Part shown: positions 1,545 through 46,118 of the stretch, piece after piece | Layout: each line of letters opens with the position of its first letter | How positions within the stretch are numbered: position 1 is the stretch's first letter | IMG/VR virus record: IMGVR_UViG_3300027782_000054 | Span: 1-64,000 of that record | Strand: one strand, 5' to 3' | DNA length: 64,000 nucleotides | DNA from: a virus | Notes under the pieces: generated by a model | The model's database searches: none | The model's input: only the letters and a program-made list of their open reading frames with translations | What the model was told of the DNA's origin: nothing | Program-made: the position numbers and the translations under genes

Positions 1545-1557
1545 GATAGTTCTTTAA

Positions 1558-1628
1558 TAGCGAAACTCAGAGTCGAACTGAGAACTAAGCCTTATGAGGG
1601 CTTCGTGTTACCCTTACACCATTTCGCG
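1558..1628 (-). tRNA. tRNA with CAU anticodon (Met or Ile2)
   Basis: The cloverleaf is visible on the minus strand: acceptor CGCGAAA / TTTCGCT (first pair mismatched), a short D-arm GTG...CAC, anticodon stem AAGCC/GGCTT with loop CTCATAA, and T-arm CTCAG-TTCGACT-CTGAG. The anticodon is CAU. The stem lacks the three G-C pairs of an initiator tRNA, so it is elongator Met or a lysidine-modified Ile tRNA. No CCA is encoded. A promoter lies just upstream. Confidence 0.85.
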
Positions 1629-1638
1629 ACGTAAAAAC

Positions 1639-1666
1639 ATTATAACATACAATTTAACAAAGTCAA
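1639..1666 (-). promoter_or_regulatory. Promoter driving tRNA(CAU)
   Basis: On the minus strand TTGACT, a 16-base spacer and TATAAT sit between tRNA-Gly and tRNA(CAU). The -10 box ends 10 bases before the tRNA 5' end. The -35 box begins at the discriminator base of tRNA-Gly. Confidence 0.6.
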
Positions 1667-1739
1667 GCGGGCAGTGGGGTACGATCCCACAACCTCCTGC
1701 TTGGAAGGCAGGCGTTCTAGCCAATTGAACTATGCCCGC
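1666..1739 (-). tRNA. tRNA-Gly (UCC)
   Basis: A 7-bp acceptor (GCGGGCA / TGCCCGC), D-arm, anticodon stem CTGCC/GGCAG with loop TTCC and a T-arm GTGGG...CCCAC are all visible. The anticodon is UCC, reading GGA. No CCA is encoded. The 3' end of the upstream HNH reading frame runs into this tRNA. Confidence 0.92.
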
Positions 1740-2127
1740 GAATATACGTTCTTTGTCTATGGCAATTTGCACAGACTAACTCACATTTTTTGAGTTCCTC
1801 GTATATTTTTTTTCTATTGCATCTTTCTATAAGTTTCCCTATGTCTGATTGTTTATCATAAAGATGATCCCAATCCATTTGCCAAGTATTGAATGTATTT
1901 TTGCAATCCGTACAAGGTTTTCTTTTTAATTCTCTTATCTCTTGCTTAATATTATCTTTATATTCTTTAGATTTATCTTTATATTTTTCTTTATTATTTA
2001 AATAATGTTCTCTGTGTATTAATTTTCTACACTCTTTACAATGAGAGCCACATCCATCTTTCTTAGTCTTACTTTTATGAAATTCATCAAATGTTTTTTC
2101 TTGCTTGCATTTTGGACATGTTTTCAT
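1717..2127 (-). CDS. HNH-type endonuclease with N-terminal zinc ribbon
   Basis: The product is about 136 residues from the ATG at 2127. It starts with a Cys4 ribbon (CPKCKQEK, then CKECRK), followed by a lysine-rich linker. A second half has C-T-D-C, the MDWDHL segment and C-A-N-C-H-R, which fits the HNH beta-beta-metal fold with a structural zinc. Such proteins in phages are free-standing homing endonucleases or packaging nicking enzymes. The composition is far more A/T- and lysine-rich than its neighbours, which suggests a mobile gene. A TTG at 2151 is an alternative start. The last eight codons lie inside tRNA-Gly, which is unusual. Confidence 0.75.
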   Translation of the reverse strand: MKTCPKCKQEKTFDEFHKSKTKKDGCGSHCKECRKLIHREHYLNNKEKYKDKSKEYKDNIKQEIRELKRKPCTDCKNTFNTWQMDWDHLYDKQSDIGKLIERCNRKKIYEELKKCELVCANCHRQRTYIRGHSSIG

Positions 2128-2217
2128 ATATATTATATAGAGATATTCCAACTTTTAAGGTAGGTTGGAAACCTGAGGTAATAGCCAGTATACGAAGCCC
2201 GCAAAAAATTAATAAGA

Positions 2218-2289
2218 AGCTCTATCAAGGACTTGAACCTTGCACTTATCCTTACAAGGGATATGTTTTGCCTGATAAACTAATAGAGC
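2218..2289 (-). tRNA. tRNA-Thr (UGU)
   Basis: Acceptor GCTCTAT/ATAGAGC, D-arm GTTT...AAAC, anticodon stem TATCC/GGATA with loop CTTGTAA and T-arm CAAGG-TTCAAGT-CCTTG are intact. The anticodon is UGU, reading ACA. No CCA is encoded. Confidence 0.93.
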
Positions 2290-2292
2290 AAG

Positions 2293-2368
2293 CTCCGGGG
2301 GTATGAATCGAACATACGAATTTTGGGTTCAAAGCCCAACGATTAATACCAACATAATCTACCCCGGA
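2293..2368 (-). tRNA. tRNA-Gln (UUG)
   Basis: Acceptor TCCGGGG/CCCCGGA, anticodon stem TTGGG/CCCAA with loop CTTTGAA and a T-arm around GTTCGATTC are visible. The anticodon is UUG, reading CAA. It lies three bases upstream of tRNA-Thr, so the two probably share one precursor. No CCA is encoded. Confidence 0.92.
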
Positions 2369-2371
2369 ATG

Positions 2372-2581
2372 TTATTTATTTTTTGTTGTATGTGCGTAAA
2401 CTGTGTCCATCATTTTAAATACGGGAACAAAAGCTTTCTTAGATCCATCTCCATTGCATTCTGGGCAGTAATCATTATCTAGTTTCTCTTTGGAATAGAA
2501 ACAATGATTCTTTGGACAAAACCAAATACCCCTGAAGACTTCTGACTGATAAAACTTTTGCCATTTTTCATCATCTGTCAT
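2372..2581 (-). CDS. Small zinc-ribbon protein
   Basis: A 69-residue protein of unknown function. CPKNHCFY near residue 22 and CPEC near residue 39 give a likely Cys/His zinc knuckle. Its start overlaps the stop of the upstream 65-residue gene in an ATGA arrangement, pointing to coupled translation. tRNA-Gln begins four bases after its stop, so the gene sits in a joint mRNA/tRNA transcript. Confidence 0.65.
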   Translation of the reverse strand: MTDDEKWQKFYQSEVFRGIWFCPKNHCFYSKEKLDNDYCPECNGDGSKKAFVPVFKMMDTVYAHTTKNK

Positions 2582-2775
2582 ATATCTATCCAGATTTCTT
2601 CAGATTGATTTTTCTTATTGTTTACTCTTCCCCATTCTTTTGCTGCAGCAATAGCCTGCTTCTCTGTATTGAAGGTTCCTATTGGACGCTTTGGAATGAT
2701 TGTAGCAGAAGCTTGTATATAATAGGCATCTGCTTTCCATTGCCCTTCTCCTGTTTTATATATTCTAGCTTTCAT
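2578..2775 (-). CDS. Small conserved-looking protein of unknown function
   Basis: A 65-residue protein, not recognised. It has a compact mixed pattern (MKARIYKTGEGQWKADAYY, then KQAIAAAKEWGR) that could form a small alpha/beta fold. Its ATG lies only two bases after the last base of tRNA-Pro, so tRNA 3' processing would leave an almost leaderless message. No Shine-Dalgarno is possible except inside the tRNA. It is followed by a 4-base overlap with the next gene. Confidence 0.65.
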   Translation of the reverse strand: MKARIYKTGEGQWKADAYYIQASATIIPKRPIGTFNTEKQAIAAAKEWGRVNNKKNQSEEIWIDI

Positions 2776-2777
2776 AA

Positions 2778-2852
2778 TCGGGATGACAGGATTCGAACCT
2801 GCGATTTTCGCGACCCAAACGCGACGGATTAGCCAAACTTTCCCACATCCCG
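2778..2852 (-). tRNA. tRNA-Pro (UGG)
   Basis: Acceptor CGGGATG/CATCCCG, anticodon stem TCGCG/CGCGA with loop TTTGGGT and T-arm GCAGG-TTCGAAT-CCTGT are visible. The anticodon is UGG, reading CCA. The downstream gene starts two bases after the discriminator. No CCA is encoded. Confidence 0.92.
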
Positions 2853-2858
2853 ATAAAC

Positions 2859-3011
2859 TTATCTTACTGACTCTAGACTACATTCCTCTTCGCACTTATC
2901 ACAACAATTACATTTCTGATCATCAGTATCGTCCATATCTTGCTTGGGGCAATAGTGGCGATAACCGTCTACTGGATAGCCACAGCTTTCACAAGGCTCT
3001 GTGTTAGACAC
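2859..3011 (-). CDS. 50-residue cysteine-rich zinc-binding protein
   Basis: This short gene starts with GTG at 3011, preceded by AGGAAG at a suitable distance. The protein has two cysteine clusters (CESCGY near the N-terminus; CNCCDKC and C near the end), as in small metal-binding proteins. The GTG overlaps the stop of the upstream 58-residue gene, and tRNA-Pro follows six bases after its stop. Function unknown. Confidence 0.6.
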   Translation of the reverse strand: MSNTEPCESCGYPVDGYRHYCPKQDMDDTDDQKCNCCDKCEEECSLESVR

Positions 3012-3180
3012 TCTTGCTCTTCCTGAAGGAATTCCAATCGTTGCTATTTGCGGGCTTGTGTTCCTGGCTCCATGAGCGAATACGATCCCACTCCTTCACT
3101 CTATCACGTTGTCCCGAAGGTTGCAAGTCTTGACGAGACTTGTTTTTGTGCATTTGTTGAAAAGATGATTCAGTTGTCAT
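3004..3180 (-). CDS. 58-residue basic protein of unknown function
   Basis: An ATG at 3180 opens a 58-residue frame (begins MTTESSFQQM, ends FRKSKSV), rich in Q, S, K and R. AAAGG lies eight bases ahead. It overlaps the upstream gene by 11 bases and the downstream GTG gene by 8 bases, so it fills the gap between two supported genes without leaving spare sequence. No known domain is seen. Confidence 0.55.
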   Translation of the reverse strand: MTTESSFQQMHKNKSRQDLQPSGQRDRVKEWDRIRSWSQEHKPANSNDWNSFRKSKSV

Positions 3181-3559
3181 TCATTAAGCCTTTCTTGCGT
3201 TCTTTTCCCTTGTGAGTAAGGGAGAAAGTAGGATTATCTCCCTCTACATCATTTTCATCAAAATAGACATGAACATCGCCTGATAAGATAAGATTGATAA
3301 GATCGACACCAATCTTCATCCTGTTGTGCCAGTTTAGCAGCTTCCAGATCTCATTGACGGTTGGAGATCCTGCCTCACGCATATTCATACTATCTATAAA
3401 CCTTACAATAAGAAGCTCCTCTTCTTCAAGCTCTTTCTCAAGAGTACCTCTACGAAGAGCATTAATCGCTTCGGCAGATAAATCTATCTGAGAGTCTTCC
3501 TGAAACTCATCATCAGAAGCATATAGTTCAGAATCTTCATCTTCTTCAAAATAGGTCAC
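3170..3559 (-). CDS. Acidic protein with possible winged-helix C-terminus
   Basis: A 129-residue protein with a strongly acidic first 50 residues. The rest (residues ~58-125: AGSPTVNEIWKLLNWHNR, then FSLTHKGKER) has a helix-turn-helix followed by a beta-hairpin, like a winged-helix DNA-binding domain. That domain call is tentative. The GTG start overlaps the MazG stop (GTGA), so translation is probably coupled. Confidence 0.6.
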   Translation of the reverse strand: MTYFEEDEDSELYASDDEFQEDSQIDLSAEAINALRRGTLEKELEEEELLIVRFIDSMNMREAGSPTVNEIWKLLNWHNRMKIGVDLINLILSGDVHVYFDENDVEGDNPTFSLTHKGKERKKGLMNDN

Positions 3560-3864
3560 TTACTATGCCTCTCTTTTAGTTTATCGATATTGAATTTTGC
3601 AACGTCTTCTAGACGGAAGTCTAGCTCACTGCATAGATTGGCTACATACCATAGCACATCCCCTAGATCTTCGTATAAGTTCTTGAGGCGATCATCAGGG
3701 AAGTCTGACCCATCTGATAGGTAACCCCTACGCAGACACTTCTTGACCTCTTCTGCGACCTCTCCGGCCTCTCCAGCGACTCCCAGAGCAAGGTAGGATG
3801 CAGCTACATCCTTGGGGTAGATTGCTGTTTCTTTTGCTTGTTGTTGATATTCATTTAGATTCAT
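3556..3864 (-). CDS. MazG-like nucleoside triphosphate pyrophosphohydrolase
   Basis: About 102 residues from the ATG at 3864; the upstream open frame is tRNA sequence and was excluded. The MazG signature is clear: EAGEVAEEV, then ~25 residues later EDLGDVLWYVA, giving the E-x-x-E...E-x-x-D metal site. The family hydrolyses (d)NTPs to monophosphates, removing abnormal nucleotides or, in phages, lowering alarmone levels. The start codon is two bases after tRNA-Leu, so processing of the tRNA would generate its 5' end. It overlaps the next gene by three bases. Confidence 0.85.
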   Translation of the reverse strand: MNLNEYQQQAKETAIYPKDVAASYLALGVAGEAGEVAEEVKKCLRRGYLSDGSDFPDDRLKNLYEDLGDVLWYVANLCSELDFRLEDVAKFNIDKLKERHSK

Positions 3865-3866
3865 AA

Positions 3867-3950
3867 TGGGAACGGTGGGAGTCGAACCCACATGGGCTTG
3901 CGCCCGACGCATTTTGAGTGCGTTCCGTAAACCAGTTCCGGCACGTTCCC
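3867..3950 (-). tRNA. tRNA-Leu (CAA)
   Basis: Acceptor GGGAACG/CGTTCCC, anticodon stem ACGCA/TGCGT with loop CTCAAAA, a long variable arm (GGGCGCAAGCCC) and T-arm GTGGG-TTCGACT-CCCAC mark a class II tRNA. The anticodon is CAA, reading UUG. No CCA is encoded. Confidence 0.94.
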
Positions 3951-3953
3951 AGG

Positions 3954-3971
3954 TGTGGGGTTGCCCCCACA
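3954..3971 (-). other. Stable hairpin between the lysin mRNA and tRNA-Leu
   Basis: A 7-bp G/C-rich stem (TGTGGGG / CCCCACA) sits between the endolysin stop codon and the first base of tRNA-Leu, three bases from the tRNA. No T-run follows, so it is a poor terminator. It probably caps the 3' end of the lysin message after tRNA excision. Confidence 0.5.
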
Positions 3972-3978
3972 TCATACA

Positions 3979-4740
3979 CTACTGCCAGTTGACGAAGGCT
4001 GCGATGTTCTTCACATAACGAAGACGCTGTGCAACCTGACCACCGTTACTCTGACTACCCTTTTCGCTTGAGGAAGTATTTCCCTCGACAGCATAGAAGG
4101 AAGTCTTCTCCTTATCGGCCCACTTGATGAAGAGTCCAATATGATCCGGTACCCCATCCTTCTGCCAATCGAACAGTACAACACTGCCCTTGACAGGAGT
4201 GGTCGTGATAGAAAGACCATTGCTCTTGGTCTGGGCATCACGAAGTACATTCGGGCAGTAAGAATATGTCTTACCCTTTACGAATGACTTTGATCCAGCC
4301 TGAACAGCACACCAAGTTACGAACATGGCACACCACGGACCATTGACTCCATACCATTTTGAGAACTCAACAATATTGCTCTCGGGCGGATCTTCAGCAA
4401 CATTCAGCTTAGATAGACCGACATCTACAGCCTTTGCATACTTAGCACCTACATCGCCCTGAGCCTTCTTGTAGGCTTCAGCCCTCTTGAGCATATCCGG
4501 ACCCTGCTGAGTATTGCAAAGAAGATAATCCTCAAATACCTGATCGTATAGTGAAGTTGCAGAAGCTTCGGTATAACCTAGCTCACGCTTTGCATTAACG
4601 ATGGCTCCGGCAGTACGCTCACCGAACTCACCATCGATATCTCCACCATAGAACTTGGCCTTCTTTAAATTTTGCTGCGCCTTCTTTACTGCATCGCCCT
4701 TCATATTTGGCGACGTTAGCTTGAGGGGTGTTGTTGGCAT
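3979..4740 (-). CDS. Endolysin: peptidoglycan-binding domain plus CHAP amidase/endopeptidase
   Basis: A 253-residue protein. Residues ~10-60 (KGDAVKKAQQNLKKAKF, DGEFGERTAGAI) form a PG_binding_1 domain. Residues ~125-250 form a CHAP domain with the catalytic cysteine in GPWCAMFVTWC (C137), the histidine in VPDHIGLF (H200) and the EGNTS strand (E219). CHAP enzymes cut peptide bonds or the amide link of peptidoglycan for host lysis. The binding domain is N-terminal, as in some actinophage lysins. AAAGGAG precedes the ATG. A hairpin and tRNA-Leu follow. No holin is adjacent; a small two-helix membrane protein at 37848 is one candidate. Confidence 0.88.
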   Translation of the reverse strand: MPTTPLKLTSPNMKGDAVKKAQQNLKKAKFYGGDIDGEFGERTAGAIVNAKRELGYTEASATSLYDQVFEDYLLCNTQQGPDMLKRAEAYKKAQGDVGAKYAKAVDVGLSKLNVAEDPPESNIVEFSKWYGVNGPWCAMFVTWCAVQAGSKSFVKGKTYSYCPNVLRDAQTKSNGLSITTTPVKGSVVLFDWQKDGVPDHIGLFIKWADKEKTSFYAVEGNTSSSEKGSQSNGGQVAQRLRYVKNIAAFVNWQ

Positions 4741-4771
4741 TCATTCTCCTTTTGTTATTTACTAGATTAAG

Positions 4772-4846
4772 TAGACAGGGTGGGACTCGAACCCACATTT
4801 GACACTGCTTATAAGACAGCCGCCTCCACCATTGGGCTACCTGTCC
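4772..4846 (-). tRNA. tRNA-Ile (UAU)
   Basis: Acceptor GGACAGG/CCTGTCT, anticodon stem GCTGT/GCAGT with loop CTTATAA and T-arm GTGGG-TTCGAGT-CCCAC are visible. The anticodon is UAU, reading AUA directly. Most bacteria read AUA with a lysidine-modified CAU tRNA instead, so this is an uncommon tRNA. No CCA is encoded. Confidence 0.9.
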
Positions 4847-4857
4847 AAGCATAGCTT

Positions 4858-5037
4858 TTACAATCCTATAAGCTTTGTCAATTCTTTAAATACCGGCACT
4901 TTTTCCCAGAGCAAGTGTTCAAAAGGAAAACCTAAGGTTGTTCCGATCCAGAACTGCCAAGTTAGAGTTAGGTTCCGGCACTTATGGTAGCACTTATGAA
5001 GGATCCCATCTGTATCTGAGTGGAAGTGCGATGACAT
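4858..5037 (-). CDS. 59-residue protein of unknown function, leaderless
   Basis: The frame is open from 5061, but a TTGACA/TATACT promoter ends 6 bases before the ATG at 5037, so that start is preferred. The protein has a His/Cys-rich beginning (SHFHSDTDG, HKCYHKC) and an aromatic second half (WQFWIGTTLGFPFEHLLW). It is not recognised; the Cys/His spacing could bind a metal. It precedes tRNA-Ile by 11 bases. Confidence 0.6.
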   Translation of the reverse strand: MSSHFHSDTDGILHKCYHKCRNLTLTWQFWIGTTLGFPFEHLLWEKVPVFKELTKLIGL

Positions 5038-5043
5038 GACTTC

Positions 5044-5071
5044 AGTATAGCAAAGACACATGTCCTGTCAA
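5044..5071 (-). promoter_or_regulatory. Strong promoter ahead of the tRNA-Ile/lysin unit
   Basis: TTGACA, 16 bases and TATACT on the minus strand, with the ATG of the 59-residue gene 6 bases after the -10 box. It would start the transcript through tRNA-Ile, the endolysin, tRNA-Leu, MazG and the small genes below. It lies right after a terminator. Confidence 0.75.
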
Positions 5072-5077
5072 GAGGAA

Positions 5078-5095
5078 AGGGGGCTTTCGCCCCCT
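5078..5095 (-). terminator. Terminator of the upstream minus-strand operon
   Basis: A perfect 7-bp stem (AGGGGGC / GCCCCCT) with a TTTC-type loop, followed on the minus strand by TTTCCTCTT. It lies 30 bases after the stop of the 88-residue gene and just before the next promoter. Confidence 0.75.
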
Positions 5096-5124
5096 AACCT
5101 TGAAACTTTACTGAATGTTTACAT

Positions 5125-5391
5125 TCAGGATGTTTGACGCAGAACATCGCCATAGGCTCTTGAAAGATCAAAGCCATCGGCAGGAGCAAGAGCGCCATTG
5201 TTAAGTTGACCCTTTTGATTAAATTCTGTAACAACAATCTTGCCAGCCGTATTGTCGATACCTTCATCTACAAGGGCATCGCTTAAGCCAAGATAAGCAG
5301 GTGTAGGATTATTGGGGTTTACGCCAATACCATCTGTATGAAAAACACCAGAGGCAGCAGTCTTTTTGTAGTTTTTCTGATCGTTAGTCAT
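5125..5391 (-). CDS. Small protein of unknown function
   Basis: An 88-residue protein with no recognised domain; N/D/G/T-rich and without membrane segments. It follows the 82-residue gene by 9 bases, with AAAGAGGAATC before its ATG, so the two are probably co-expressed. The composition resembles small virion-associated proteins, but this is a guess. It is the last gene before the terminator at 5078-5095. Confidence 0.6.
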   Translation of the reverse strand: MTNDQKNYKKTAASGVFHTDGIGVNPNNPTPAYLGLSDALVDEGIDNTAGKIVVTEFNQKGQLNNGALAPADGFDLSRAYGDVLRQTS

Positions 5392-5400
5392 GATTCCTCT

Positions 5401-5649
5401 TTATATCTTAGATTTATTTACGGTTGTATAAGAAGCCTGGAAATCTGTAGCGCCATTGTCTGAGTCTGTTCTGAAGACTTTGGTCTGAACCTGGACATTG
5501 CGATCCTCCGCTGCGTAAGCAGCGCGAGCTACTTCATTATAGGTATTAACAGGTCTTGTCTCTGTATCAGTGTAGACAGTTCCGGTCTGCGCCGCAAAAG
5601 CGTAAGCACCTGGAATGTTTAGAACAAAAGATGATGAAGATGTAGCCAT
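5401..5649 (-). CDS. Small protein of unknown function, possibly virion-associated
   Basis: An 82-residue protein starting MATSSSSFVLNIPGAYAFA, rich in A, T and S, similar in style to small phage structural proteins. It has a very good ribosome site (AGGAGG) seven bases before the ATG, stronger than most genes here, suggesting abundant product. tRNA-Arg lies upstream in the same transcript. Not recognised as a named family. Confidence 0.6.
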   Translation of the reverse strand: MATSSSSFVLNIPGAYAFAAQTGTVYTDTETRPVNTYNEVARAAYAAEDRNVQVQTKVFRTDSDNGATDFQASYTTVNKSKI

Positions 5650-5702
5650 TAAGTATTCCTCCTATATTTTAAGCATAGGAAGATAGAAAGATAAAGGTAC
5701 TA

Positions 5703-5775
5703 AGGCCCCTCCAAGGATCGAACTTGGGCTTGGGAGGTAGAAACTCCCCGTGATAATCCACTTCACTAAGGGGCC
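5703..5775 (-). tRNA. tRNA-Arg (UCU)
   Basis: Acceptor GGCCCCT/AGGGGCC, anticodon stem GGGAG/CTCCC with loop TTTCTAC and T-arm CCAAG-TTCGATC-CTTGG are intact. The anticodon is UCU, reading AGA. No CCA is encoded. A G/C hairpin lies five bases 5' of it. Confidence 0.93.
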
Positions 5776-24106: not shown

Positions 24107-26146
24107 ATGGCGTCTAAGCAATCCTCTGCAGATAAAATTAAGGTTCCAGACCTGCTCAGTATGTTTGAGTCCCAACTTGTCAAGCGCAAGGTGGGTATTG
24201 TGGAGTTTGCTCATTCACCAGAATTCTGTGGTAAGCCTCTCTACCCTCGACAAAGAACTCTTTTAAAGCTTATCTTTCTAGAAGATCTAGACAGTTATGA
24301 TAAAAAAGTTATTGATGAATGGATTAAATCATCAAAAGAGGGTGGAGAGGTTACCATTTCTCCTGGCATATATGACAGATATGATTATCTAAGGGATCTT
24401 AACTTTCCTCATTTCCGTCAGATCCAATTAGTTGGTGGACGCCGTTCTAGCAAGGGCCATATAACTGGCCTAGCTACAGCAAAGAAAATCTATGACCTTA
24501 CTCTCATTGATAATGTTGGCGAACACTATGGTATCGACGTAGATAAGGATGTTTATATTCAAGTAGTAGCCAACTCTAAAGAGCAGGCTAAGGCCATGCA
24601 ATTTGCAGACTCTACGAACTGGCTCCTTGCTTGCAAGTCAATTGCAGATCAAGGTCTTATTTCAAAGCTATTGGCAGAAACTACATCTATTTTCACACCA
24701 TACGATAAACAGAGAGTATTAAAGATTGAGTCTCAGCAAGGTAAGATTGATAAAGATCTTGCAAAGATTCGCCTACAGGCTCAGGGGACTAACTCTCGTA
24801 CCCTTCGTGGTCAGGCAGCTATTGCCTATATCTTTGATGAGTTTGCTCACTTTCTTTCAGGAGAGTCTAATATGTCTGCTGAAGAGGTATATAAAGCCGC
24901 TACGCCATCATTAGCTCAGTTTGGTAAAGATGCTATGATTTTCACCAATTCATCTCCATATACAGAAATTGGGATGTTCTTTACTTTATATAATCATTCA
25001 TTGCAACTGGACCCACCAGTGATTGGTAAGCCAGTTTATCCCGATATGTTAATGTTGCAATATCCTTCATGGGAGCTTTACAAAGACTGGGATAATGATC
25101 CATTGTATAAATGGAAGGGTGCCATCATGGTATCCCCAGATGTCTCCGATGAATTACTCGCTAACTCAGATGAACGAATTAAATCACAACAAGCTCGTTT
25201 TGAGGAAATGGCTAACCCAGAATCATTCGCTGTAGAATATAGAGCCAGATTCGCCAAGGTAATCGATGCCTTCTTAAATCCGGAAATGGTAGATAGGGCA
25301 TTTGATCCTGAATTTACTAAGTCAAAGGTTGGCCGTTATATTGATACAGAGTATGGCGCAAAGATGTTTTCTATGTATAAGGCACATGGAGATCCTTCCT
25401 CAGTTGTAGCTAACTTCGGTATAGCTGTTGCACATATTGAAGAAGTAGAGGAAGAGATGCCAGATCGTAATGGTGGAATGTTCCTTATGAAGGTTCCTCA
25501 TGTTGTATTTGATCTCGTAGATGCCTTCTATCCAGAAGATTTCGAAGAGAAGACTATTGACTGGATGCAAGTTGTCCCCCAAATTGGTAAGCTTATTAAC
25601 GCTTTCCGTCCTATTGAATGGACATTCGATCAATTCGATTCTAATTTTGCTATTCAACAACTAAATTCTGATATTGGTAATATGGGAATCACAGAGACTC
25701 AGGTATACATGAAGACCGCCAATGCTGCAAATAACAAGAGACGCGCTATGAATTTCAAAGCTGCCCTTAATCTTGGTCGTATCCATATCCCCCATCCTAC
25801 CTATCCAAGCGATAAATCTAACAAAAAGTCACTTGAGCTTGTCAGACAGGAGCTTAAGTTCCTTCAAGATAAGAATGGTCGTATTGATAAACAGGAAATT
25901 GGCCCAGTGAGGACCAAAGATATTGCAGACTGTTTAATGGAATGCGTAGACTTCTTAATTGGAGACAGCTTAACAATCAATATGTTCACTCAGTCTAGAC
26001 CAGAATTTGGTAGTGCTAGTGGATATGGTATTGGTAAGCATCAAGACAGCCCATTCTCTTCATTCTATGAAGCGTCTAGGCTAAATCAGAAGCATGATCT
26101 GGCCCGTGGAGGAAGATTTTTCAATAAAAGAGAAAGACCACGTTAA
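24107..26146 (+). CDS. terL: Terminase large subunit
   Basis: A 679-residue packaging motor. Walker A-like GGRRSSKGH (110-118), Walker B YIFDEFAHF (D244, E245) and the coupling motif IFTNSSPYTE are clear. The C-terminal nuclease lobe shows VFDLVDAFYPED and WTFDQFDSNFAIQQL, typical of the RNase H-like terminase nuclease (including a late DCLMECVDFL). The motor cuts concatemers and pumps DNA through the portal. Length is at the upper end for TerL. Its C-terminal ~50 residues are basic and glycine-rich. Confidence 0.9.
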   Translation: MASKQSSADKIKVPDLLSMFESQLVKRKVGIVEFAHSPEFCGKPLYPRQRTLLKLIFLEDLDSYDKKVIDEWIKSSKEGGEVTISPGIYDRYDYLRDLNFPHFRQIQLVGGRRSSKGHITGLATAKKIYDLTLIDNVGEHYGIDVDKDVYIQVVANSKEQAKAMQFADSTNWLLACKSIADQGLISKLLAETTSIFTPYDKQRVLKIESQQGKIDKDLAKIRLQAQGTNSRTLRGQAAIAYIFDEFAHFLSGESNMSAEEVYKAATPSLAQFGKDAMIFTNSSPYTEIGMFFTLYNHSLQLDPPVIGKPVYPDMLMLQYPSWELYKDWDNDPLYKWKGAIMVSPDVSDELLANSDERIKSQQARFEEMANPESFAVEYRARFAKVIDAFLNPEMVDRAFDPEFTKSKVGRYIDTEYGAKMFSMYKAHGDPSSVVANFGIAVAHIEEVEEEMPDRNGGMFLMKVPHVVFDLVDAFYPEDFEEKTIDWMQVVPQIGKLINAFRPIEWTFDQFDSNFAIQQLNSDIGNMGITETQVYMKTANAANNKRRAMNFKAALNLGRIHIPHPTYPSDKSNKKSLELVRQELKFLQDKNGRIDKQEIGPVRTKDIADCLMECVDFLIGDSLTINMFTQSRPEFGSASGYGIGKHQDSPFSSFYEASRLNQKHDLARGGRFFNKRERPR

Positions 26147-27667: not shown

Positions 27668-28438
27668 ATGGATATCTATACTTCAGACGAATTCCAAAAG
27701 AAAGCTAATAAGCAAGCTCTAATCCTTGCTCGTACACGCTACAATGAATTGATTGCTCCATTTGTCAAGAACTCAAGTTCAAGATTTGAGTACGCCAAGA
27801 ATGATATTGAAAAGATCGTTCTAGCTGCCGTTGAACAATTTGATGCAGATGCTAACTATGTTCGTTCTAATCTTCGTGCAGTAATTGCAGAAGAATCAGA
27901 TAATAAGCGCACAATGGAAAAGGGTCTTGGCGTTGACGGAGAAGCCGTCAAGGAAGACCTAACAAATGCCGGGAAGTCATACACTGGCTTTGGTGATGGC
28001 AAGGGCGATGCAAAAGACAAGGGTCTTGGTGTTGAAGGTGAGAAGGGTGGCGAAGAAGCCACTTCTGAACCTAAGTCAGAGAGCGTTAATTTTGACAAGA
28101 ATGATGCCGAGAACGAGGATGCTGTCGAAGGTTTCGGTGGAGGTCCTGAAAGCCCATCATCTGAAGTCAAAGATCCAAGCGAAAGACCTGACGAATCCAT
28201 TGAAGAGACAGATATTTCTTACCACAATGGCCCAGTCCTTGAAAAGGAAATTCGTGGCCCATCTGCTGGTGGCCCTGGCAAAAAGCATGAGCTAAAAGAA
28301 GATACTTTCAAGTGGACAAAGGTTGAAGATCGCCTAATTGTTAGCACGAAGGAGTCGTCTTGCTGCGATAGTGATTGCTCCAGTTGTAGCTGTGGCGGTA
28401 GTTGCGGTAGCGATTGCCCTTGTAAAAAAAAAGTCTAG
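27668..28438 (+). CDS. Head-region protein with cysteine-rich tail; possible frameshift donor
   Basis: A 256-residue protein. The N-terminal ~80 residues are helical (EFQKKANKQALILARTRYN). A long acidic, glycine-rich disordered part follows. The end (CCDSDCSSCSCGGSCG, then CPCKKKV) holds ten cysteines in ~20 residues, like a metallothionein. The stop TAG comes four bases after a run of nine A. A -1 shift on that run would join the downstream 395-residue frame. Function unknown; likely a virion component from position. Confidence 0.65.
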   Translation: MDIYTSDEFQKKANKQALILARTRYNELIAPFVKNSSSRFEYAKNDIEKIVLAAVEQFDADANYVRSNLRAVIAEESDNKRTMEKGLGVDGEAVKEDLTNAGKSYTGFGDGKGDAKDKGLGVEGEKGGEEATSEPKSESVNFDKNDAENEDAVEGFGGGPESPSSEVKDPSERPDESIEETDISYHNGPVLEKEIRGPSAGGPGKKHELKEDTFKWTKVEDRLIVSTKESSCCDSDCSSCSCGGSCGSDCPCKKKV

Positions 28439-28506
28439 CAAAAAAAACTGATTCTCAATATAAAACCTACCTCTCTTCTGAAGAAGGAAATAAACCTACC
28501 TCTGGA
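28424..28506 (+). other. Candidate -1 frameshift (or slippage) site joining two frames
   Basis: Nine A then G at 28424-28433 in codons AAA AAA AAA GTC TAG. Moving back one base enters the frame of the next gene, which is open through all 25 codons between the run and its first ATG at 28507. That ATG has no ribosome site at normal distance and no other start codon exists in the interval. A second A8 run follows at 28440-28447. A sequencing error in the homopolymer would look the same. Confidence 0.5.
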
Positions 28507-29694
28507 ATGAAATCTGCTGCTGCCCGTGCTTTGAAATGGCATGAAGAAGGCAATAAGGGTGGCACAAGCATTGGACTAGGCCGCGCTCATCAAATTGTAA
28601 ATGGCGAGAATTTGAGTAATAGTACGGTAAAAAGAATGCATTCATTCTTTGCTCGCCATGCAGTAGATAAAAAAGCTCCTGGCTTTAATTCTGGGCCAGA
28701 GTTTCCTTCCCCAGGCCGTGTTGCATGGGATCTATGGGGTGGAAATTCAGGAGCTTCCTGGTCAAAAGCTAAAGCTGCACAAATGGATAAAAGTTCTTCG
28801 TTAGAAAAACAAACATTTGCTCAAATAGGCCAGCCCATAACTGGTTATGGACCAAGCAATGGAGATAATCCAAATGATGAAGCTAATCCACTTGTTGGAA
28901 CTAAAATCTGTCCTTCTTGCAATACAGTGAATGAATCAGAGGCAACGCAGTGTGCAAACATTTCCTGTGGAAAGTCATTGACAAATCAAACACTGGCTGC
29001 TACAAAAACCGCTGAACTTCCTGGTGAACCACAGGGATCAGTTCCCAATGGTGCAGAAATGCCCATGAACAATGCTCCCAATCCTGCTATGATGGGCGAG
29101 AACGTCAGTGATGAGAACAAATCACTACAAGACCCAAAGGCTTTAGCTCGTATCACAGTAGCCAATGAAAGTGCTGCTAAAGAATTCTCTCAAGTAGATA
29201 AACTTGAGAATGCTCCGGAAGTTAAAAAACTTATCTCACAGAAATATCATCTTCCAGAAGAATATCTTGATCATCATCTAGTTGTAGAAGCTACGTTTGG
29301 AGACAGCATCGCCATCAATGGTCAGATGAAGGTAGAAGGAATAGATACTGAAACTCTATCTGAAGTTCATGTTGATCAACAATTCATTGAAGAGGGCGAT
29401 TCTTTAACTGAGGTCAAAAAGGGAGCATCTGTTCCTCTTAAGCTCATTATTAAAAAAATAATGAAAGAAGAGAATATGGATGAAATTACTGCGATGAATT
29501 CCCTAAAAGATTCATGGGCAGGAGAAAGTCCTCCTCTTGAGATGAAAGTTCTTGTTCAAGGATCATTAAGGTATTTCCTCCCAATAGAAGCTGTTGGGCA
29601 ACAACAAACAGAGTCTCCATTCCAGCAACAACAAAGACCAGAAGATGTAATGGATCAGGAATACAATCAAGTCCCTGAACAACCTGCTCACTAA
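28507..29694 (+). CDS. Head-region protein with conserved phage N-terminal domain and zinc ribbon
   Basis: A 395-residue frame. Residues 1-95 (MKSAAARALKWHEEG, then RMHSFFARHAVD, GRVAWDLWGGNSGASW) form a domain I have seen in other phage virion or protease-associated proteins; no name is certain. The domain seems to begin before the ATG, since the preceding codons read K-P-T-S-G. A zinc ribbon (CPSCNTVNESEATQC, later C) lies near 135-155. The second half has repeated strands and a Q-rich tail. It may be expressed only by frameshift from the upstream gene. Confidence 0.65.
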   Translation: MKSAAARALKWHEEGNKGGTSIGLGRAHQIVNGENLSNSTVKRMHSFFARHAVDKKAPGFNSGPEFPSPGRVAWDLWGGNSGASWSKAKAAQMDKSSSLEKQTFAQIGQPITGYGPSNGDNPNDEANPLVGTKICPSCNTVNESEATQCANISCGKSLTNQTLAATKTAELPGEPQGSVPNGAEMPMNNAPNPAMMGENVSDENKSLQDPKALARITVANESAAKEFSQVDKLENAPEVKKLISQKYHLPEEYLDHHLVVEATFGDSIAINGQMKVEGIDTETLSEVHVDQQFIEEGDSLTEVKKGASVPLKLIIKKIMKEENMDEITAMNSLKDSWAGESPPLEMKVLVQGSLRYFLPIEAVGQQQTESPFQQQQRPEDVMDQEYNQVPEQPAH

Positions 29695-29696
29695 AA

Positions 29697-29963
29697 GTGT
29701 TACATAAAATTAATCTACATAAAAAAGAATTAAATTTTATCTGTTGTGAAATATGCGGGTATGATAAGTATGTTACCCGTCATAGAATAAGGCCCGGTAA
29801 AAAGGGTGGAAGGTATGCTCCAGAAAATGTAATAGGATTATGCCCTAACTGTCACATAGAGGCAGAGCTTAAATTAATTTCTCCATTAACACTATTAAGC
29901 ATAATTTATGATAGAATAAAGAAAGAAAGAGAAAATATTTTAAGCTGTAGAGGTCGTAGTTGA
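29697..29963 (+). CDS. Small HNH endonuclease-like protein
   Basis: An 88-residue protein. FICCEICGYDK, TRHRIRPGKKGG, YAPENVIGLCPNCHIEAE give the zinc cysteines and the H-N-H order (RHRI...N...H). These small HNH proteins are common mobile nicking enzymes in phages and can also assist terminase. Start GTG at 29697 is the first in frame, with no clear ribosome site; a later start is possible. The low-GC, lysine-rich composition hints at mobility. A promoter overlaps its end. Confidence 0.72.
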   Translation: MLHKINLHKKELNFICCEICGYDKYVTRHRIRPGKKGGRYAPENVIGLCPNCHIEAELKLISPLTLLSIIYDRIKKERENILSCRGRS

Positions 29964-30004: not shown

Positions 30005-32077
30005 ATGGCGGATTTTTTAAACGGAGGAGAGTTACACAAGTATCGCTCAAGTGCGCTACATACTCCTCGTATACCTAGAAATGTTCTTACATCCCAAAAG
30101 GATGATAAGCTTTTTGAACAGGTTGATGATCATAATCGTAAATTAGCCGGTGAATTCGCTAATAAGCGCAATAATCGTAAGACAGCCTCTGCTATGAGAA
30201 AACTGTCTGGGTACTCATCTACTGCTGTAGGTGGCGATGTATTTGCAGCTATTCCTCGTTTCTATTCACCACTTGAATACTTTGAACAGACACAGATCCC
30301 TTATGACATTAACAATAAGAAGCATCGTTTTGAACTTTATAAGTGGCTTGATCTTTTCTATAGGACTCATTATCTTATTCCTATTCTTGTTGATATTTTC
30401 ACTCGCTTCCCTCTTGTCGGAGTTGATTTCTTTGGCCCCGATGAGGAATTAAATAATTTCTACCATGAGCTATTCTTTGATCGCCTAGACTATGAACAGT
30501 TCATGGTGGATATGGGTCGTGAATACTGGACTCTAGGTCAGTCATTCCCAATGGGTACCTTTAATGAAACCCTTGGTATCTGGGAATCAGAAGAACTTAT
30601 TGACCCAACTCTTGTCGATGTAAAGCGTTTCCCCATTATTGGTGGAGAGCAATTCTTTATCGTTCCTCCTAAGGAACTTGTAGACCTTGTTAAGAACCGT
30701 AGACCTGCTCCTCAGTTCGCTCTTCTTGAGAAGAACTATCCGGAGCTTATTCCGTTCTTAATGAATGGTCGCAACATTCCGATCTCTAATGTTCTAATGA
30801 AGCAAGTTGCTTTCAAGGCTTCACCAAGAGATCTTTATGGAACTCCCATCCTTCTTCGCGCATTAAGAACACTTATGCATGAAGAGAAGCTACTCGCATC
30901 ACAGGATGCTATTGCTGAACGTCTCTATTCACCACTTATTCTTGCCAAGCTTGGTGTTCAGGAGATGGGCGCAAATAGAATGCCATGGATTCCTGGTCCT
31001 CAGGAAATCTCTTCATTCCGTAACGATCTTGATATTGCTCTCTCATCAGACTTCCGTTTGATCGTCCACCATTTTGGCATTGATATTCAGAACGTCTTTG
31101 GTCGTGAACAGATGCCTCGTCTTGATAACGACTTTGATCGTATTGAGAAGCGCATCATGCAATCATTCGGAGTCAATCCAAATCTCTTGAGTGGTGGTAA
31201 CGCATCTACGCCTTACGCATCATCTGCTCTACAGGCTGAATTCTTGAATCAGATGCTTCGCACCTATCAGAATTTCCTCAAGAAGCATTACAAAGAACGC
31301 GCACTTATTGTTGCTGAAGCTCAAGGTCATTATGCATATGAGAAGCGTGGAGATACTCGCGTACCGATCATGGAAGAAGTTCTTATCTATGATGAGGAAG
31401 GTAATCAGCGCATTGAAAGACGCAAGAAGCTTATGATCCCTGAGATGAGAATGAAAACTCTTGACCTTCGTGACGAAGCAACTCAACGTCAGTTCCTCAC
31501 ATCACTTAGACAACAGGGTGTTCCGATCCCAGATCAAGATATTACAATGGGTATGCATTACGACTTCACAGAGTCTCTCAATAAATTCAGCGATGAGACA
31601 GTTAAGAAGACTATCGCAACTCAACAGGCTAAGGTTCGTGCCTACAATATCCTTGTCGCTATGAATCTACCTGTCCCACCAGACCTCCTTGCAGAAATGC
31701 AGGTTGCTGGACTTGCCCCTGCCGGTCAGCAAGGCGTCCCAGGAAGTCCTCCACAAGGACCACCAGCAGGACAGCAACCCGGTGGTGCCGGAGGTGCCGC
31801 AGGTGGGCCAGGAGGTCCTCCTGCAGGTGGAGGCGGTGGAGGCATCCCTATGCCCCCAGTTCCTACAGACCTAGGTGGATACAATCCTGAACGTGGCAAC
31901 GTGCCTGAGCAGTCTACTGAGAGGCTCCCAGGGCCAGGAGGAACTAATGCTCCTGCTGCACCGAAGGCTGCTTCCTACAAAACATCTAACTTTGACCTAC
32001 CAAGAGCTAAGTCTATTCCTAAAATTGAGTTCCTCCATACGTGGCAACTTGATGATGAAGAAGACTTGACAGACTAG
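30005..32077 (+). CDS. Portal protein
   Basis: A 690-residue protein. The portal core is recognisable by layout: a clip/stem region, DLYGTPILLRALRTLMHEEK (typical of portal proteins), and QSFGVNPNLLSGGNASTPYASS, the segment seen in many large-phage portals. The last ~150 residues carry a long Gly/Pro/Gln-rich linker (~550-620) and a short conserved tail. The portal forms the dodecameric DNA gate at the capsid vertex. AAGG precedes the ATG. Downstream comes metabolism, not capsid genes, so the head cluster is split. Confidence 0.82.
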   Translation: MADFLNGGELHKYRSSALHTPRIPRNVLTSQKDDKLFEQVDDHNRKLAGEFANKRNNRKTASAMRKLSGYSSTAVGGDVFAAIPRFYSPLEYFEQTQIPYDINNKKHRFELYKWLDLFYRTHYLIPILVDIFTRFPLVGVDFFGPDEELNNFYHELFFDRLDYEQFMVDMGREYWTLGQSFPMGTFNETLGIWESEELIDPTLVDVKRFPIIGGEQFFIVPPKELVDLVKNRRPAPQFALLEKNYPELIPFLMNGRNIPISNVLMKQVAFKASPRDLYGTPILLRALRTLMHEEKLLASQDAIAERLYSPLILAKLGVQEMGANRMPWIPGPQEISSFRNDLDIALSSDFRLIVHHFGIDIQNVFGREQMPRLDNDFDRIEKRIMQSFGVNPNLLSGGNASTPYASSALQAEFLNQMLRTYQNFLKKHYKERALIVAEAQGHYAYEKRGDTRVPIMEEVLIYDEEGNQRIERRKKLMIPEMRMKTLDLRDEATQRQFLTSLRQQGVPIPDQDITMGMHYDFTESLNKFSDETVKKTIATQQAKVRAYNILVAMNLPVPPDLLAEMQVAGLAPAGQQGVPGSPPQGPPAGQQPGGAGGAAGGPGGPPAGGGGGGIPMPPVPTDLGGYNPERGNVPEQSTERLPGPGGTNAPAAPKAASYKTSNFDLPRAKSIPKIEFLHTWQLDDEEDLTD

Positions 32078-40211: not shown

Positions 40212-46118
<5,907 letters not shown>

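Follow-up and report, generated by a model that had tools for sequence, protein, structure and literature searches.

The window analysed here is a stretch of 64,000 nucleotides (nt) from the virus record IMGVR_UViG_3300027782_000054, which has 95,174 bases in full. Between the genes for the terminase large subunit and the portal protein are a gene of 483 amino acids (aa), two open reading frames (ORF1 and ORF2) and a small HNH gene. ORF1 and ORF2 meet at a run of nine adenines (A9; Table 1), and comparison with related genomes indicates that both belong to one gene, the full-length protein of which is very probably made by slippage on this run, the short form being a by-product or else a second product. 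Frame 0 ends with TGC CCT TGT AAA AAA AAA GTC TAG, and the -1 frame continues past A9 as AGT CTA GCA AAA AAA ACT GAT, its preceding in-frame stop being TAA at 28423-28425. Unshifted reading yields 256 aa, and a -1 shift at A9 yields a predicted fusion of 675 aa with the predicted peptides CPCKKKSLAKK, which spans the junction, and TDSQYKTYLSSEEGNKPTSGMK. A preliminary description of this DNA had proposed a -1 slip on A9 that gives a fusion of this length plus a short form with a Cys-rich tail; the position of the run, the ending of ORF1, the frame lengths and both products, as frames, were confirmed.

Close relatives L002 and L003 and the more distant L004 were obtained from IMG/VR searches, and further relatives with a single ORF were located and placed through the neighbouring portal gene. 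L002 is 91% identical to the ORF2 frame; its run, TGT AAAAAAAAAA GTC TAG, is A10, and its gene forms one ORF of 825 aa. L003 has A9 (GAT AAAAAAAAA GTC TAG) and reaches its second frame by a -1 shift, and L004 likewise has A9 and needs a -1 shift (GTA AAA AAA AAG TAA), with TAA directly after AAA AAA AAG. The gene was undivided in seven distant relatives, L006 (622 aa), L043, L045, L047, L048, L049 and L050, all seven of which have the N-terminal domain of ORF1 within a single ORF. The N-terminal domain of ORF1 and the C-terminal domain of ORF2 were found on the same polypeptide in L006, L043 and L050, the latter domain being recovered by hmmsearch with the window sequence alone as query (E values of 4.7e-11, 4e-13 and 1.5e-12, respectively). 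Because both domains share polypeptides in these relatives, ORF1 and ORF2 are two ends of one conserved protein, and the long protein is, judged from these sequences, the conserved product. The "two head-region genes" of the preliminary description are thus one gene, and its suggestion that relatives might encode a single ORF was borne out by the seven divergent genomes and by the A10 of one close relative. In L006 the Cys-rich stretch continues in frame into KASKYLAS, the counterpart of KKKSLAS in the shifted frame of the window.

The ORF2 frame has no start codon (ATG, GTG or TTG) ahead of its first ATG, which lies 25 codons past AGT 28432. The best Shine-Dalgarno pairing 5' of this ATG was +1.6 kcal/mol, against mostly -4 to -9 kcal/mol for the other genes of the window. 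Similarity to sequences of other phages sets in 5-10 residues ahead of the ATG (residue 28 counted from 28426), at residue 23 by tblastn and at residue 18 by phrog_2859. The open stretch of 25 codons, the missing ribosome site and a domain beginning before the ATG had all been described beforehand and were upheld, and no relative was found in which the second gene has a normal ribosome site. The early ATGs of L003 also had no Shine-Dalgarno sequence. From the run to the equivalent ATG, L003 contains a block of 55 codons that is 73% identical to the single ORF of L006, with 13, 10 and 32 differences at codon positions 1, 2 and 3, respectively, and without a possible start codon ahead of it. Since this block is conserved with differences biased to third positions, the stretch before the ATG is coding.

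The portal tree placed the window, L002 and L003 together, with L004 outside them, followed by L006 and the other single-ORF relatives. Between the window and L004, identity at four-fold sites was 0.31-0.38 (synonymous saturation), and Lys codons AAA were still AAA in 10 of 25 cases (40%). As synonymous sites are saturated, the A9 and its offset are not shared through mere recency; they would have been either retained through that saturation or gained twice. An isolated assembly error is unlikely, because three independent contigs have A9 and one has A10. The run is the only one of at least nine A or T in the whole 95-kb record, and its significance comes from the conservation of run and -1 offset in relatives. 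A run of eight adenines at 28440-28447 was considered as well and dropped, as it is not kept in L002 or L003.

In the scheme proposed for these observations, ORF1 and ORF2 would form one gene encoding a protein just ahead of the portal gene, interrupted in this lineage by the slippage-prone A9, at which the DNA is one base short. Most likely, RNA polymerase would add one A in a fraction of the transcripts, giving A10 and a single frame as in L002, and -1 slips of the ribosome on A_AAA_AAA may contribute. Unslipped transcripts would give the 256-aa protein ending in the Cys-rich tail and KKKV. A run of such length would yield both products from A9 or A10 DNA, so the A10 of L002 fits polymerase slippage, and transcriptional slippage would fit the mixture of A9 and A10 at least as well as a ribosomal shift. 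Nine A or T suffice for efficient slippage in vivo, and the run used in Thermus dnaX is A9 (PMC5009743, PMC1088944), while in Citrobacter tssM1 an interrupted ORF is restored on A11 and both length variants are needed (PMC4256274). Recoding by one machine or the other is considered likely on the sequence evidence. Transcriptional slippage is given about an even chance of being the main route, and is favoured in that role over ribosomal frameshifting; which machine slips, its yield and a role for the short form are what we infer.

Several points weigh against this scheme. Codon-shuffled genes of the window contained a mean of 0.50 A or T runs of at least nine, with one or more in 41% of the shuffles, so A9 by itself is not statistically remarkable and one such run would quite often arise by chance. 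Relative to frame 0, the run has one phase in the window (TGT|AAA) and another in L004 (GTA|AAA), which makes two independent origins possible, and of the four sequences that carry the run only two lineages (the window group and L004) are clearly diverged. A 9-bp RNA hairpin 5' of the run was seen only in the window and L003.

A programmed -1 ribosomal frameshift, setting the ratio of short to long product as in dnaX or lambda G/GT, is possible but somewhat doubtful. Canonical X_XXY_YYZ heptamers precede the frame-0 stop in the window and L003 (A_AAA_AAA) and in L004 (A_AAA_AAG), with the stop following at once or one codon later, and the -1 offset is identical in all three. However, no stable downstream RNA structure was found in the window at 28433-28532 (z +0.57, pseudoknots and long-range elements not being modelled), where the stretch of 45 nt that begins at the stop codon is unstructured and folds to 0 kcal/mol, and structure was modest in L003 (z -0.91) and L004 (z -1.57). 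The best Shine-Dalgarno-like pairing upstream of the run was also weak (-3.0 kcal/mol in the window and L002, -2.1 in L003 and -1.5 in L004), A9 is longer than a ribosomal slippery site requires, and the A10 of L002 would remove the need for a ribosomal shift. The frameshift linkage put forward in the preliminary description therefore held in that the frames make one fusion, but not as to the ribosome being the slipping machine, for which no downstream stimulator was found.

It is unlikely that there is no recoding at all, A10 being the true or functional state and A9 either an undercount in assembly or polymerase chain reaction (PCR), or the "off" state of a replication slippage that toggles A9 and A10 ("on"). 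Homopolymers are readily mutable, and L002 does combine A10 with one ORF, but that genome is also evidence that assembly can recover A10; three separate contigs, one of them with very different surroundings, have A9 and an identical offset, and A8 runs elsewhere in the window leave genes unbroken. Translation of ORF2 as a separate gene from its own ATG, whether at a ribosome site of its own or coupled to the ORF1 stop 68 nt upstream, is very improbable in view of the poor ribosome site, the domain start upstream, the conserved block of L003 and the single ORF of relatives.

Polymerase slippage is known to be stimulated by a hairpin in the nascent RNA (PMC5009743), and the hairpin 5' of A9 is a possible candidate for such a stimulator. 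L002 has a different hairpin, and L004 has only one of 4 bp, which is not more stable than typical ORF1 sequence. Being absent from L004 and without compensatory changes, the 9-bp hairpin was given little weight.

In ORF1, a helical domain at the N-terminus (about residues 1-76) is followed by a charged region of low complexity, which finishes with EIRGPSAGGPGKKHELKEDTFKW, and then by a Cys-rich tail, the last residues of which are CPCKKKV. The N-terminal domain is conserved in 10 relatives and was modelled by AlphaFold as a small helical bundle, with a mean predicted local distance difference test (pLDDT) score of 79.6. The ORF2 frame contains a small phrog_2859-type domain (KPTSGMKSAAARALKW...SFFARH...LWGG), a zinc-ribbon-like CPSC...CGKSL and the conserved C-terminal domain of the family, the model of which had moderate confidence (pLDDT 69). 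The predicted short form would thus comprise the N-terminal domain and the Cys-rich tail without the conserved C-terminal domain. The middle of the protein contains exchangeable small domains and zinc-ribbon-like cysteines: the SFFARH/LWGG domain is present in the window, L002 and L003 and missing from L004, and a second block (GGDN...ESAI.ICKSS) is present in L003 and L006 and also missing from L004. At ORF1 residue 75 (region of window position 27890), the window lacks about 80-130 residues that L002, L003 and L004 have and that differ from one of these genomes to another, making this a variable cassette site. The 16-mer AAAAAAAAAGTCTAGC (A9GTCTAGC) occurs in L012, L015, L016, L018, L026 and L037 directly ahead of the SFFARH/LWGG domain, which lies at the C-terminal end of an unrelated portal-like gene; the 16-mer is read there in frame as KKKSS within a single ORF and in a different phase. 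It was rejected as a shared signal and taken as a coincidence or as something left over from cassette exchange.

Searches of Pfam, PHROGs, PDB sequences and folds gave nothing usable on the function of the N- and C-terminal domains; neither model had a significant fold match, and ORF1 matched no capsid family in Pfam, PHROGs or PDB and no named phage by tblastn. Homology to gp91 of mycobacteriophage Pleione, the positional counterpart, was unsupported (hhalign probabilities of 0.9 and 0.15 on a scale of 0-100). From its place, the gene may act at or near the portal or in packaging.

Compared with known systems, the window resembles Thermus thermophilus dnaX in having nine A's on the sense strand shortly before a coding frame ends and two products with a common N-terminus (PMC5009743, PMC1088944); the genes are not homologous, and the unslipped product is the long one (tau) in dnaX but the short one in the window. 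In Citrobacter rodentium tssM1 poly-A likewise lies a few bases ahead of a premature stop, relatives are intact and slippage restores full length, although that gene belongs to a secretion system, the run is A11 and both forms were shown to be needed there (PMC4256274). Escherichia coli dnaX and lambda G-GT share the -1 direction and an extended second product, and E. coli dnaX also an A-rich heptamer. However, the site in E. coli dnaX is flanked by a Shine-Dalgarno-like element upstream and a hairpin downstream, where the window run showed weak Shine-Dalgarno-like pairing and no downstream hairpin, and lambda G-GT is a tail assembly chaperone ahead of the tape measure, whereas the window gene lies between terminase and portal. 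The frameshifts of T7/T3 gene 10A/10B and of Listeria phage capsids also add a C-terminal extension to a phage head gene, but they extend the coat protein; the window gene is an uncharacterised neighbour of the portal, and its extension holds the conserved C-terminal domain of the family.

In phages, the best-known cases of recoding concern tail chaperones and coat proteins. The present gene would add a recoded portal neighbour, an unusual gene for recoding, in a group that is related to Bxz1/Finch-like phages and has been little studied. Gene callers divide its protein in two, and an annotation of ORF2 would use a false start. The A9 or A10 state of relatives that are 91% identical offers a natural test of transcriptional versus ribosomal slippage in a phage. 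That a conserved poly-A switch in a morphogenesis gene sets, by transcriptional slippage, the ratio of the short Cys-rich to the full-length portal-associated protein, with both needed for head assembly, is a rather doubtful proposition; if true, it would place in the head module an equivalent of lambda G/GT that is produced by a polymerase, and genomes with A9 and A10 would be two settings of one ratio.

Table 1. Coordinates of the features of the locus in the window
Feature	Position	Strand	Basis or remark
Terminase large subunit gene	24107-26146	+	phrog_2, E 2e-18
ORF1, frame-0 product of 256 aa (predicted short form)	27668-28438	+	sequence reading
RNA hairpin of 9 bp, 5' of A9 (GGTAGTTGC GGTA GCGATTGCC)	28396-28419 (ends approximate by a few bases)	+	folding
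A9 slippage-prone run, frame-0 heptamer A_AAA_AAA	28424-28432	+	one base short of joining the frames
ORF2 frame (-1), 422 codons counted from upstream stop	28426-29694	+	equals fusion residues 256-675
Frame-0 TAG stop, one codon past A9	28436-28438	+	sequence reading
First possible ATG in ORF2 frame	28507-28509	+	no Shine-Dalgarno; a start here would truncate the domain
C-terminal domain	29083-29691	+	common to single-ORF relatives L006, L043, L050
Portal protein gene	30005-32077	+	phrog_2833, E 3e-153

The portal protein showed 38-42% identity to those of Rhodococcus phage Finch (42%), Gordonia phage Stormageddon and Bxz1-like mycobacteriophages (38%), and the phage of the window is a distant relative of the Bxz1/Finch group. 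No relative among named phages was found by search at the DNA level, and scans of genome contigs gave no host link. A search of the record for a T7-type RNA polymerase had no match, a result that carries no information, as the control likewise matched nowhere. Eight transfer RNA genes (Met, Gly, Thr, Gln, Pro, Leu, Ile and Arg, none for Lys) lie on the minus strand at 1557-5775. The 1036-aa portal ORF of L050 (4784-7894) has a large in-frame insert with a LAGLIDADG domain (PF14528), a probable intein, and the terminase ORF of L047 (1154-3988), at about 944 aa some 250 aa above its relatives, has an in-frame insert without a Pfam match. The small HNH endonuclease ORF of the window (29697-29963) has a GTG start two bases past the ORF2 stop, and HNH-type ORFs resembling it occupy the equivalent position in L043 and L050. 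Further downstream, at 40212-46118, the window encodes a collagen-repeat tail-fibre-like protein of 1968 aa with CBM_5_12 carbohydrate-binding modules.
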